Shown in pieces: positions 20,521 to 30,594 of a stretch of DNA of 40,477 nucleotides. The notes under the pieces are model-generated. The model worked only from the letters and a program-made list of their open reading frames with translations, ran no database searches and was not told the DNA's origin. Source of the stretch: Fragilariopsis cylindrus CCMP1102 (taxonomy: Eukaryota > Bacillariophyta > Bacillariophyceae > Bacillariales > Bacillariaceae); the NCBI GenBank assembly GCA_900095095.1, contig FMBT01000591.1, positions 1 to 40,477 on the forward strand. Reading direction: 5' to 3'. Position numbers and translations under genes: made by a program. Numbering within the stretch: position 1 is the first letter of the stretch; every line of letters starts with the position of its first letter.

Positions 20521-22569
20521 TTATTCACCTGTTGTTTCACTTTCATCTGTGTTATTGTTGTTTACTTTCGTATAGTACGGACGTACTCTGCGGATGTTTA
20601 CTCTTACAGTAACAAATGGTTCCTTTTCAATAGTGATAGACCCATTTTCATGGTGCTTTATAACTTTATAAGGACCTTGCCGTGGTAACGTTAGTGTACG
20701 GATGATTCCAGTTTTCTCTAAAGTAACTAGGTCACCCTTCTTATACGTATGTGGTATTCGTTTGGAGTTTTCTCTCATATTGCTTTTACGAATCCTTTGT
20801 TGTTTTCTTATTTTTATCTGTTCCCAATCGATATCTGCGCTTACAGGCATGAACATATCTCTTCCAAACACCATCTGTGCAGGAGAGTGGCCATGTGTCT
20901 GATGGAACGCGGCTCGAATTGAGAATGCTGCTGCAGTTAGATACTCTTCAAACGGATCGTCGTCCTGTTCGTTGAATACCTTCTCCTCCAAATTGAATGA
21001 ACGGATGCAATCAGCTAATACTTGGTGTATTCGTTCAAGGATGGCGTTTGACTGTGGATTCCATGCAAGACTTGGTTTTTGTTTTAAACCCATATTGTTA
21101 CATAAATCTTTGAATTCAGCCATGAATTCGCCTCCATTATCGAACCCAATTTCTCTTGGTCTTGGATACCTTGCTAACCACGTATTATCAAGTAGTTGTT
21201 GTGCTCTAAAAGCAGTTGGAGCTCCATATAATGGTGCTAATTCAAACCATCCGGTTACTGGGTCAACCATTGTCATAACATGGACTTGATACGTATATTC
21301 GCCATTGTCCACACTTTTTGGTCCCCATAAATCAACATTTACTCTACTCCATTTTATAACTTCTCCTTTCTTTTCTTGAAGAAGTCCATATTTCTTAATA
21401 CCACCCTTCTTACTCATTTGGCATTCATGACAGTTTTTACAGCGTTCTTTGACTTGTGTTCGCATTCCTGGCCATGTGTATACCAATCTAATTGTAGACT
21501 CCATCCGTTTTTCTCCCGGATGTACAAGTAAAAGATGATACCAATCTAAGACGCGTTCCCATAATTGTTCTGGTACTAATATCTTACCATTATCATGTAT
21601 TAATTCCACTCCTTCAATTTCCTTAGTTGTAAATCTTTGATTGTTCCATTTTTGATTTGCTTGTACTTTAGTTTGTAACTTAGTATCAGCATCTTGGTTT
21701 GTTTTAAATAATGTTACATCTAATGGATATTGTTTGTCAGCGAACTCTCGTTCTGCTGCTAGTGGATACATATATTCGTCGTCAACGTTCGATTCGAACT
21801 GACAGTTTGACATAACATAACACATTTCTTTCATTTGTTTATCATTGACATAATGTAGTGGTTTGTTTTGTTTCTCCCATGTGATAGTATCATATGGTTT
21901 TTCTTTCATTTCTAATCGTGACAGCGCATCTGCTGCATCATTATCTTTACCAGCCACATGTTTAATCGTAGGATTGAACTCTTCTAACATAAGTCTCCAA
22001 CGAACCATTCTTTGTGATGGCATGTTTTGATATAATAGATTAAGATGGTCAGTGTGTACTGTTACGTCCATTCCACGGACTACTCCATCGAATGCTTTGA
22101 GGCCTTCCACGATACCTAGTAACTCCTTTTCTCCCACAGTGTAGTTCATCTGCGCAGAATTAAGTTTTCTAGTGTAGAACCCCAACGGTTTCCCCTCCTG
22201 TACGAGTGTTGCTCCTAGTTGGAGATCACTTGCGTCGGTATAGAGATCAAATGGCTTTGAAAAATCCGGATACGATAGTCTTGCTTCCTTGGATAGCATG
22301 TCCTTCGCCTTCTCGAATGCCTTTTGATGTTCATTAGTCCATTTCCAATTTAGTTTACCAGTTTTTGATGCTATTTTGTTTAATGGAGCTAATGTTTCTG
22401 ACCTCTTTGGCCATAGATCGCGATAAAAGTTAACCATACCTAGGAACATCTTCAATTGTTTAGTGTTCTTCGGTGCTTTGATACGTTTCATTGCTTCGAT
22501 TTTCTTTGGTTGTGGTTCTAATCCTTTTGTTGTTAATAACCACCCTAAATACTCAACTTCTTTCTGCAT
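20521..22569 (-). CDS. Retrotransposon pol, 3' part: RNase H and integrase
   Basis: 682 codons without a stop. It starts inside the RT thumb/connection region; the frame is open upstream through YIDD to ~22718, so the first ATG is not the true start. RNase H covers residues ~105-220, with TDAS (D112), GEKE (E147), HTD (D174) and the DALSR end. The integrase zinc finger uses H345, H350, C380 and C383. The catalytic core has D413 in NVDLWGP, D477 in FDNGGEF and E512 in LERIHQ. The GPY/F module (RQGPYKVI) is at ~635, and a short Asn/Thr-rich tail ends the protein. There is no chromodomain. It would copy and integrate the element's DNA if fused to a functional RT. Confidence 0.93.
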   Translation of the reverse strand: MQKEVEYLGWLLTTKGLEPQPKKIEAMKRIKAPKNTKQLKMFLGMVNFYRDLWPKRSETLAPLNKIASKTGKLNWKWTNEHQKAFEKAKDMLSKEARLSYPDFSKPFDLYTDASDLQLGATLVQEGKPLGFYTRKLNSAQMNYTVGEKELLGIVEGLKAFDGVVRGMDVTVHTDHLNLLYQNMPSQRMVRWRLMLEEFNPTIKHVAGKDNDAADALSRLEMKEKPYDTITWEKQNKPLHYVNDKQMKEMCYVMSNCQFESNVDDEYMYPLAAEREFADKQYPLDVTLFKTNQDADTKLQTKVQANQKWNNQRFTTKEIEGVELIHDNGKILVPEQLWERVLDWYHLLLVHPGEKRMESTIRLVYTWPGMRTQVKERCKNCHECQMSKKGGIKKYGLLQEKKGEVIKWSRVNVDLWGPKSVDNGEYTYQVHVMTMVDPVTGWFELAPLYGAPTAFRAQQLLDNTWLARYPRPREIGFDNGGEFMAEFKDLCNNMGLKQKPSLAWNPQSNAILERIHQVLADCIRSFNLEEKVFNEQDDDPFEEYLTAAAFSIRAAFHQTHGHSPAQMVFGRDMFMPVSADIDWEQIKIRKQQRIRKSNMRENSKRIPHTYKKGDLVTLEKTGIIRTLTLPRQGPYKVIKHHENGSITIEKEPFVTVRVNIRRVRPYYTKVNNNNTDESETTGE

Positions 22570-28281: not shown

Positions 28282-28951
28282 GACTCTGATCTTCTATTTC
28301 CTATCTACTATATCAAGATGAGGATGGATGAGAATATCAGAAAAACCCACACACATTATATTGTTGTAAGAATAACAAAAATTGAACATTATTTGAATCA
28401 ATCATCAAACTCAGTCAATTTACATGCTTTTTTGTGTATTTAAATTTAACACTTCACAGCTTCCAGGCTATCAAATCAACACAACAACGGCGCGTTTGCA
28501 TTCAAACACGACTTAGATTATTAAGTTCTTTTGTTGCCTACTGTACTTCCTCCGTGCAACCGTAACTTCACGCGCGCTATCAGCCGAAAATTTAGCGTCT
28601 TATTAACACGCTATCACTCAAAGAACTGAATAATGCCCAAAAAATAACTAGCAAATACTAGTAAAACTATTCATCATTCAACTGTGTGCAACTCTATCAG
28701 TAAACAATTTTTTTCAAAATTTGAAAGGTTCCATCTGAACTATTATTCTATACAGATTTCATGTAACAACATCCTGGAGCATCCGGTAATGCAATTAAAT
28801 TGGTTGAAAAATGTTTCTTTCCGCTCGCGCGACTATTTCGGGAGGTTTTCTCCCTCTTTTTGTTTTTGTTTCTCCCCCAAAACTTTTATTCGTGCGAAAT
28901 ATTTTCACGTGCAAAATATTTTCGCGAAATTTTGCGAAAAAACGCGAAAAT

Positions 28952-28981
28952 ATTTCGCACGAATGATCATTCGTGCGAAAT
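28952..28981. repeat. Perfect 30-bp palindrome, block 1
   Basis: Centred between 28966 and 28967 on TGA/TCA, with arms built from TTTCGCACGAA. A further copy of ATTCGTGCGAAATATTTTC at ~28887 is complementary to GAAAATATTTCGCACGAAT at ~28946-28964, so alternative hairpins compete. Confidence 0.95.
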
Positions 28982-29146
28982 TTTAATGTGTTTGAAAGGG
29001 GGAAATAAAATATCTTTTTTTTTTACGCTAAATTAATATCATACGTTTATCCCTCTTTTTATATCTTTCCCCTAAAACTTTTATTCGTGCGAAATTTATT
29101 CTTCACGTGCGAAATTTTTTCGCGAAATTTTGCGAAAGAACGCGAA

Positions 29147-29182
29147 AAAATTTCGCACGAATGATCATTCGTGCGAAATTTT
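29147..29182. repeat. Perfect 36-bp palindrome, block 2
   Basis: Same core as block 1, longer by three bases on each side, centred between 29164 and 29165. The preceding arms GTGCGAAATTTTTTCGCG (~29108) and CGCGAAAAAATTTCGCAC (~29141) pair as an outer stem. Confidence 0.95.
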
Positions 29183-29434
29183 ATGTACTTTTCAAGGGGG
29201 ATAATTAATATCTGTTTTTAATAATGACTGCCCCCTTTTTAACGCGCGCGACTAAAAAGACTTTTTCTAAACAATGAAATTTCATTACCGGATGCTCCTG
29301 AAGTTTTATATTTCCTTCTGAAATAAGTAGGCAACCTGATAGACTAAATTAGCATGTGTGAAATGCACGTTAAAAAAATTCACAAAATTTTCAAACGATA
29401 GAGCGCGTGAAGTTACGGTTGCACGGAGGAAGTA

Positions 29435-30594
29435 TGAAGACAACTACGTAATATAAGGAGCAAGTAAGAATACTTTTTGACAACGGGTTTTTGCAGGTAT
29501 TTTACGCGTCTAAAAAAACACGCGTTAATTTTCACACGCGTTAATTGTATCTTTGTGTGTGGTCATTAAATTCCGTTATTAATAACAGAAGAAGTAAGAA
29601 CGACGATCAGATGAGTTTCTAAACAAAAGTAAATGCTGAAGTTCGAGAGGCACTTTAGACAATTAGGGTATACATATTTTCTATGGAACATTAAGAAAGT
29701 CCGGAATATAATTGAGAGCATTGAAAGAAACAGAGAAGAAGAAGAACATGTATTGTTGGTGATATCATGTTCTGTTATCCTTTTAAATGACGAGAGTTTC
29801 GCTGCGCTTCAACCACGCGAATGATTAGCAAACTGCATACACATCGTCATGGCACGTATAAACATCGTGGATATAAATCAGTCACATTTTCTTGCTTCCG
29901 GGGGATTTTATGAAGTTATAGGTCTTCGTTTTGTGTAATTGTATTGACACGATGCGCTACTAACTTACTGCATTCTGTTTAGTCTATTAGCGGTAAACTC
30001 CAAATTTTAATTTGTATTTGCGTTTTAGTCGTTCACATCTTAGAAAGGTAAACTCCAAATTTTAATTTGTAGTTGCGTTTAGTCGTTCCCATCTTCTCTT
30101 GATCATCCAACGAAAAATCGGGTACGGTATCTACGGGTTCAATTTGTTTACAAAAAGATAGAACATAATAGAACCACGTCACCTAGGCAGCTAGGACTAT
30201 AGACTTTATCCATTCGTTCCTAAAGTACACGTCATTTTGTGTTAACACATTGTACCAGAAGTAAAAATAGATATACACAACGTTGCTTCACAGTCTTCTC
30301 TTTTAGTCATCAACCAAAATTCCGGTGTCAAAAATTGTGGCGTCAACGAATGGTCTTGTAGTACTAGACTGTGCGAATATAAATTTGTAGTTGTAATAGT
30401 AGATAATTCATGAATACCTGGTAGTTTGTAAACGAAAGGATAGTTTAATATAATAGTTAAAAATTGTTTATACTATAGATATTGTTGTGAATACATTGAA
30501 GAAAAATGATGACTGTGTTATGTTACTGTACAAAAATAGAATGATGAATAAGTGCATGAGAGAGAGAGAGAACGAGAAGACAGTAGATGATGAT
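29435..30594. other. Intergenic region
   Basis: No supported gene. A 63-codon plus-strand frame at 29633-29824 has no recognisable domain. A near-perfect tandem pair of ~50 bp lies at 29992-30095. The last ~150 bases contain (GA)n at ~30558-30571 and should include the 3' UTR of the Gln-rich gene. Confidence 0.5.
29992..30095. repeat. Tandem pair of ~50-bp repeats
   Basis: Copy 1 at 29992-30041 and copy 2 at 30047-30095 both begin GGTAAACTCCAAATTTTAAT and end TCGTTC(A/C)CATCTT, with a 5-base spacer. Confidence 0.9.

Follow-up and report, generated by a model that had tools for sequence, protein, structure and literature searches.

A MITE with a palindromic core nested in a TA-type MITE of Fragilariopsis cylindrus, and a putative binding array in its transposon family

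In the stretch of Fragilariopsis cylindrus DNA analyzed here (40,477 nt, referred to as the window), the region 28544-29434 is very probably a 521-bp non-coding MITE nested in a TA-type MITE, with a palindromic core that represents a putative binding array. The repeats and palindromes described in the original prediction are present at the positions it gave and exceed chance expectation, yet that prediction had assigned them to one element with a palindromic core. We are nearly certain that they belong to two elements: the core is a second element with other TIRs and a CTG duplication, inserted in an older outer MITE of the TA type. Nested MITEs are ordinary, and the finding in the window is no exception; the interesting part is the turnover of the arrays and the mosaic second gene in the wider family. 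The features are as follows.

28544..28545, no strand: TA, left target-site duplication of the outer MITE (four other copies have empty sites with one TA)
28546..28773, + strand: outer MITE, left part (matches outer-type genomic copies in the alignment)
28546..28575, + strand: outer TIR, 30 perfect bases, starts CTTCCTCCGTGCAACC
28774..28776, no strand: CTG, left target-site duplication of the inner element
28777..29297, + strand: inner element, 521-bp non-coding MITE of a CWG-duplicating, PHIS/Harbinger-like family
28777..28791, + strand: inner TIR GAGCATCCGGTAATG
28889 (28889..28898), 28954, 28970, 29084, 29152 and 29168, no strand: six TTCGTGCGAA/TTCGCACGAA sites
28904..29021, + strand: tandem block 1 (array plus flank), repeat family D1
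28952..28981, no strand: 30-bp perfect palindrome ATTTCGCACGAATGATCATTCGTGCGAAAT
29102..29219, + strand: tandem block 2, 86% identical to block 1, repeat family D1
29147..29182, no strand: 36-bp perfect palindrome (identical 36-mer near the left end of coding copies C425 and C351)
29283..29297, - strand: inner TIR, right copy
29298..29300, no strand: CTG, right target-site duplication of the inner element (single-CWG empty sites of five relatives)
29301..29432, + strand: outer MITE, right part (adjoins the left part in insert-free outer copies)
29403..29432, - strand: outer TIR, right copy
29433..29434, no strand: TA, right target-site duplication of the outer MITE (single-TA empty sites of other copies)

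Two elements with separate copies in the genome

The outer element (28546-29432) is a non-coding MITE of about 350 bp without its insert. As predicted, its terminal 30 bases are perfect: 28546-28575 is the reverse complement of 29403-29432 in 30/30 bases, with a TA beyond both ends, and in a longer form the arms span 61 nt at 84% identity. The second inverted repeat of the original prediction is likewise present (28776-28831 / 29243-29298, 56 nt, 77%) and is the TIR of the separate nested element, which measures 521 bp (28777-29297) and is flanked by two CTGs.

The window's own assembly (67.9 Mb, 818 contigs) was searched with 28500-29480; 40 of 228 candidates were scored, so that all counts of copies are lower bounds. 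Many genomic copies align at positions 45-275 of this query and, a few bases on, at 804-935, while in some outer-type copies the match is restricted to the left part of the query. The middle of the query (273-799) stands alone at C36. Since shell and middle are found separately in the genome, the region is composite. The insert is absent from all 26 other aligned outer copies. The alignment crosses the insert junction without a break in 25 of the 28 fetched outer loci, a count that leaves out two window-derived loci which are also among the 27 matches; the exceptions are L003 and L006, where the right-hand part differs, and L008. Joined with one CTG, the window flanks are collinear with the outer relatives except for one base at the junction; the relatives differ by this one base in length and have no CTG at that point, so we infer the CTG target of the window's inner copy rather than read it directly. 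Nested inverted repeats with a TA at both outer ends could also be expected of one mobile element alone, either similar to a foldback or a MITE whose core is complex. This explanation is hardly credible, however, as the core occurs alone at C36 and C37, the shell occurs without the core in outer-type copies, and each has its own target-site duplication. A foldback element, in which long TIRs make up most of one element, was considered as well and rejected in view of the two separable elements.

With one mismatch allowed in the search of the fetched outer copies (L003-L030), 20/28 carry TACTTCCTCC and GGAGGAAGTA at opposite ends, separated by 323-391 bp, and in eight copies one or both of these end sequences are missing from the stretch examined. 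A search with the joined flanks of nine copies yielded contiguous empty places for five of them. Four (L005, L007, L017, L026) align with a clean single TA, which identifies TA as the target-site duplication of the outer family, and the fifth (L018) has a 2-base gap beside the TA. The idea of a mobile TIR element with a TA duplication therefore holds for the outer family. Its proposed refutation, a lack of both further copies and single-TA empty sites, is contradicted at the level of the family, in which both exist, although the window copy itself has no clean empty site: the only similar flank in the assembly, on C645, is missing about 47 neighbouring bases along with the element and thus says nothing on the TA of the window copy.

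Just beyond the outer element, 29518-29546 holds two copies of ACACGCGTTAATT whose starts lie 16 bases apart. Compared with this stretch, the C645 flank has a gap of about one ACACGCGTTAATT unit, and one such unit may have been gained or lost beside the outer element. Elsewhere in the window, an ORF at 20524-22569 (- strand) has RT_RNaseH, integrase zinc-binding and weak integrase-core matches and is presumably a piece of a Ty3/gypsy-like retroelement.

The inner family: movement and coding relatives

Two full-length non-coding relatives of the inner element were found, one of 516 bp at C36 (486/522 columns identical to the window element) and one of 558 bp at C37 (420/586). Both already have the doubled block, hence the doubling is older than the insertion in the window. 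An identical CWG stands on both sides of all ten elements with both ends read, and likewise of the window copy; single-ended inner fragments are mixed, and several have no CWG outside the TIR. When the joined flanks of ten elements were used to look for empty sites, 5/10 matched an unbroken empty site on a different contig, with one CTG or CAG (CWG). The identical columns amount to 145/145 for C37, 142/145 for C36, 140/147 for C664, 139/153 for C640 and 140/158 for C425; C37 and C36 are MITEs with the doubled core. The flanks of C113 have a 73% match at C90, and for the other four elements no match covers both flanks as fully. These five empty counterparts with one CWG show that the inner family has moved recently. 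Either an insertion or an excision is recent in these cases, as precise excision would mimic absence.

Some contig pairs have equal flanks or search scores (L022/L023; C88/C164, C182/C379, C146/C307), which may reflect two haplotypes or redundant contigs in the assembly. On its right side, the coding copy C425 (L061) directly adjoins a TACTTCCTCC end of the outer-MITE type, and the same neighbour is present on C652, the empty counterpart of C425.

Five coding loci share the inner TIR and matching CWG flanks. Four of them (C113, C425, C640, C351) are 4388-4404 bp long, about 4.4 kb without interruption, and the fifth (C80) is interrupted and exceeds 12 kb. All five contain a 346-aa ORF without stops, 99-100% identical between loci, and a second, acidic ORF that runs the other way. 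Its main exon is stop-free in C640 and C351; in C113, C425 and C80 it is broken or split. The 346-aa protein matched no Pfam family at E<=1, and against solved structures it gave only marginal amidase matches. Because its own sequence has no Pfam match, its superfamily membership is derived from relatives: D172, D245 and E277 are invariant when the 346-aa protein is aligned with six homologues of the same genome, PF13359 (DDE_Tnp_4) is matched at E<=0.1 by four of these seven proteins, and the 346-aa ORF hits C88 (E 1.1e-13) in overlap with a PF13359 hit above the cut-off. From these alignments, it is a predicted DDE-type transposase of the PHIS (PIF/Harbinger-ISL2EU-Spy) kind. A Pfam search with six second-ORF pieces, at E up to 10, returned no recognisable DNA-binding domain and no Myb/SANT domain; a diverged domain may fall below the reach of HMMER. 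On six contigs, relatives of the second ORF are found near relatives of the transposase: C489, C733, C79, C287, C265 and C664. The exact parent of the window MITE was not found among the coding copies, as their ends are only 74-79% identical to it. Among viral contigs, one stretch fits the pattern and none encodes a relative of the transposase.

Palindromic arrays and a probable exchange between subfamilies

The two tandem blocks of the original prediction (118 nt each, 86% identical, spacing 198), each with its perfect palindrome of 30 or 36 bp, are well above expectation: the summed palindrome length is 110, a value not attained in any of 500 Markov shuffles (mean 18.7). The 36-bp palindrome is identical in the window MITE and coding copies despite the divergence of their ends. 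In the coding copies, which form subfamily F1, the distance of the array from the end of the element is about 110-200 bp on the left and 125-200 bp on the right. The TTCGTGCGAA palindromes are the subterminal array of the coding parent, doubled in the MITE. Of 50 exact genomic sites of the pattern ATTCGTGCGAAAT, 43 coincide with matches of the inner element; read backwards as a control, the pattern has 0 sites. The remaining seven (C61, C89, C92, C149, C343, C441, C685) may be chance occurrences or remnants.

The original prediction had offered a structured RNA, a protein-binding array or a source of small RNAs for the core, and of these the protein-binding array is best supported; we consider it probable that proteins encoded by the element itself bind to the array. 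A role as hairpin RNA or as source of small RNAs, i.e., a transcribed palindrome acting as silencing trigger or miRNA-like precursor, would agree with the very stable predicted fold (-113.5 kcal/mol, z -8.7), but a DNA palindrome folds strongly in any case. As all 35 Rfam matches at E<=1 stay under their gathering scores and the arrays lie near the ends of coding elements, outside the ORFs, we regard an RNA function as improbable, and the structured RNA is not upheld.

The six motif sites vary less between copies than the rest of the element. Between the window and C36, 0/60 motif columns have changed versus 36/462 elsewhere (Fisher 0.010), and between the window and C37 these numbers are 2/60 and 164/526 (Fisher 2e-7), which fits constraint on the sites. 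Of the proposed alternatives to account for the palindromes, recent duplication or selection, the duplication predates the insertion in the window, and selection is compatible with the conserved sites. Perfection in both blocks is not general: C36 retains it for a 30-mer in just one of its blocks, and neither block of C37 has a perfect palindrome of the TTCGTGCGAA motif, which counts against a need for perfect palindromes.

The sequence comparisons establish that the 521-bp MITE inserted into an older TA-type MITE and duplicated CTG, and that its array block, which coding elements have inside both ends, is present twice in tandem. On the binding-array reading, the MITE would have lost the coding part and kept TIRs and arrays. 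The array would act as a dyad-symmetric cluster of sites for the second-ORF product or the transposase, the bound protein would load the transposase onto the TIRs, and the MITE would be moved by proteins supplied in trans.

Four other subfamilies have CWG flanks, TIRs related to the inner family and subterminal arrays of other motifs: F2 (C664 93285-100221) with TTCTAATTAATTAGAA, F3 (C265 1069492-1076459) with TTCTAAA repeats, F4 (C733) with CGTAGA and F5 (C489, only the left end found) with TTAGTA. The arrays could be a by-product of mutation, generated by slippage and inverted duplication near transposon ends and devoid of a binding function. In favor of this, the subterminal parts of F2 and F3 differ strongly (60% identity, with a shuffle range of 46-57%), even though the terminal 85 bp agree at 95% and the transposases and second ORFs are 90% and 89% identical; TTCTAA is abundant in both subfamilies, where F2 arranges it largely in inverted pairs and F3 mostly in direct repeats. 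Moreover, the block of the MITE is a plain tandem duplication, and a commonest 6-mer above all 500 shuffles is seen in F2 only, being equalled for F1, F3, F4 and F5 in 52, 37, 80 and 122 of 500 shuffles (A-runs included). Perfect palindromes exceed shuffles in F1 and F2, not in F3 and F4. Half-sites at multiples of about 10-11 bp are found in F2 (0/4000 random placements as regular), F3 (p 0.006, 0.015) and F4 (p 0.004, 0.005), in a test for which the motifs were chosen after the arrays had been seen; such steps can arise from tandem growth alone. The spacing is not significant in F1 (p about 0.20, 0.14), F5 (0.35) or the MITEs (0.33, 1.0, 0.55), and given the result for F1 its support is limited to F2-F4. 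Three observations nevertheless make a pure by-product unlikely: the distance of the array from the ends is similar across the five subfamilies read, left and right motifs agree in the four with both ends read, and the motif columns of the MITE copies vary less than their surroundings. Left and right arrays of one element have 38, 27, 19 and 57 8-mers in common, compared to 2-15 across subfamilies, with the highest value for F3-F2.

The second gene appears to have a different history from the transposase. The F1 transposase is 56-58% identical to those of F2/F3 and 43% to that of F4, and the first exon of the F1 second ORF is 41% identical to F2 and 24% to F5. In the main exon the identities are 69-73% with F5 and 24-26% with F2/F3 (31-32% over shorter stretches). 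For the main exons compared, L062 1143-2399 (C640) and L099 576-1799 (C489), the accompanying transposases are about 45% identical; versus C664/C265 the relation of C640 is reversed, the transposase being closer and the main exon farther. These identities point to an exchange of the main exon between subfamilies, with F1 as a presumed mosaic. F1 looks like a natural recombinant, F2/F3-like in TIR, transposase and first exon of the second ORF, and F5-like in the main exon. The core of its array, ATTCGT, occurs eight times in the two 300-bp ends (once outside the array), and it occurs five times in F4, twice in F5 and not at all in F2/F3.

Tentatively, two separately evolving codes may be envisaged, one for recognition of the TIR by the transposase, the other for recognition of a subterminal array with a private motif by the second, non-Myb protein. 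This reading draws on five elements compared after the arrays had been seen, and the statement that the array motif follows the second ORF is post hoc. If it is true, the array motif would be a fast-changing lock between sister transposons and their MITEs within one genome. The wider family could matter in this respect, as it comprises five subfamilies in one genome with a shared end layout, different motifs and a mosaic accessory gene, a ready comparison of how two-protein transposons recognise their own ends. With the suggested recent activity, the system may be testable.

Comparison with known systems

MITEs of the Stowaway / Tc1-mariner type are short, non-coding and duplicate TA. The outer element has the same properties, and the start of its TIR, CTTCCTCC, resembles the Stowaway start CTCCCTCC.

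The inner family has TIRs, a short target-site duplication and, via its relatives, an alignment to DDE_Tnp_4, as expected for PHIS elements. Like PIF/Harbinger elements and their MITEs (Harbinger3_DR, mPing), in the descriptions of PMC9710019 and PMC2836001, it is a two-protein system with a DDE transposase, a short duplication and non-coding derivatives. For Harbinger3_DR, PMC9710019 describes an accessory Myb-like protein that interacts with the transposase and recognises a subterminal motif of 9 bp, whereas the inner family has an array of palindromes and an accessory protein without a recognised Myb domain. Its target is CWG and not AT-rich, as given for PIF/Harbinger in PMC4482050, where the role of extra ORFs is called unclear.

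By CWG duplication, two ORFs and length, the nearest group is NuwaI, described within PHIS with a 5'-CWG-3' target-site duplication, two ORFs of which one is DDE, and an average of about 4462 bp (PMC4482050), compared to 4388-4404 bp here. The second ORF of NuwaI is described with a Myb/SANT domain, which was not detected in the inner family, and its TIR usually begins with GGG, unlike the inner-family TIRs GAGCATCCGG, GAGCACCCGG, GAGCACCCGA, GGAGGTCCGA and GAGAGTCCGA, which begin with GAGC, GAGA or GGAG. All NuwaI elements in that account (Han et al. 2015, PMC4482050) come from 16 animal genomes, while the present host is an alga rich in light-harvesting proteins; for Pangu, a further group of PHIS, the account lists a heterokont and two algae as hosts. 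In the present assembly PF00504 gave 104 matches, and one of these proteins matches antenna chains with names including LHCI, VCPI and fucoxanthin chlorophyll a/c protein; the ASAFAP motif at its start suggests a chlorophyll a/c alga such as a diatom. Among the top-ranked matches in open-licence literature we found no report of CWG-duplicating PHIS elements in algae, which is weak evidence of novelty. Given the undetected Myb/SANT domain, the different TIR start and a host outside the animal range reported, the inner family is filed as a CWG-duplicating variant of the PHIS superfamily and not as a member of NuwaI.
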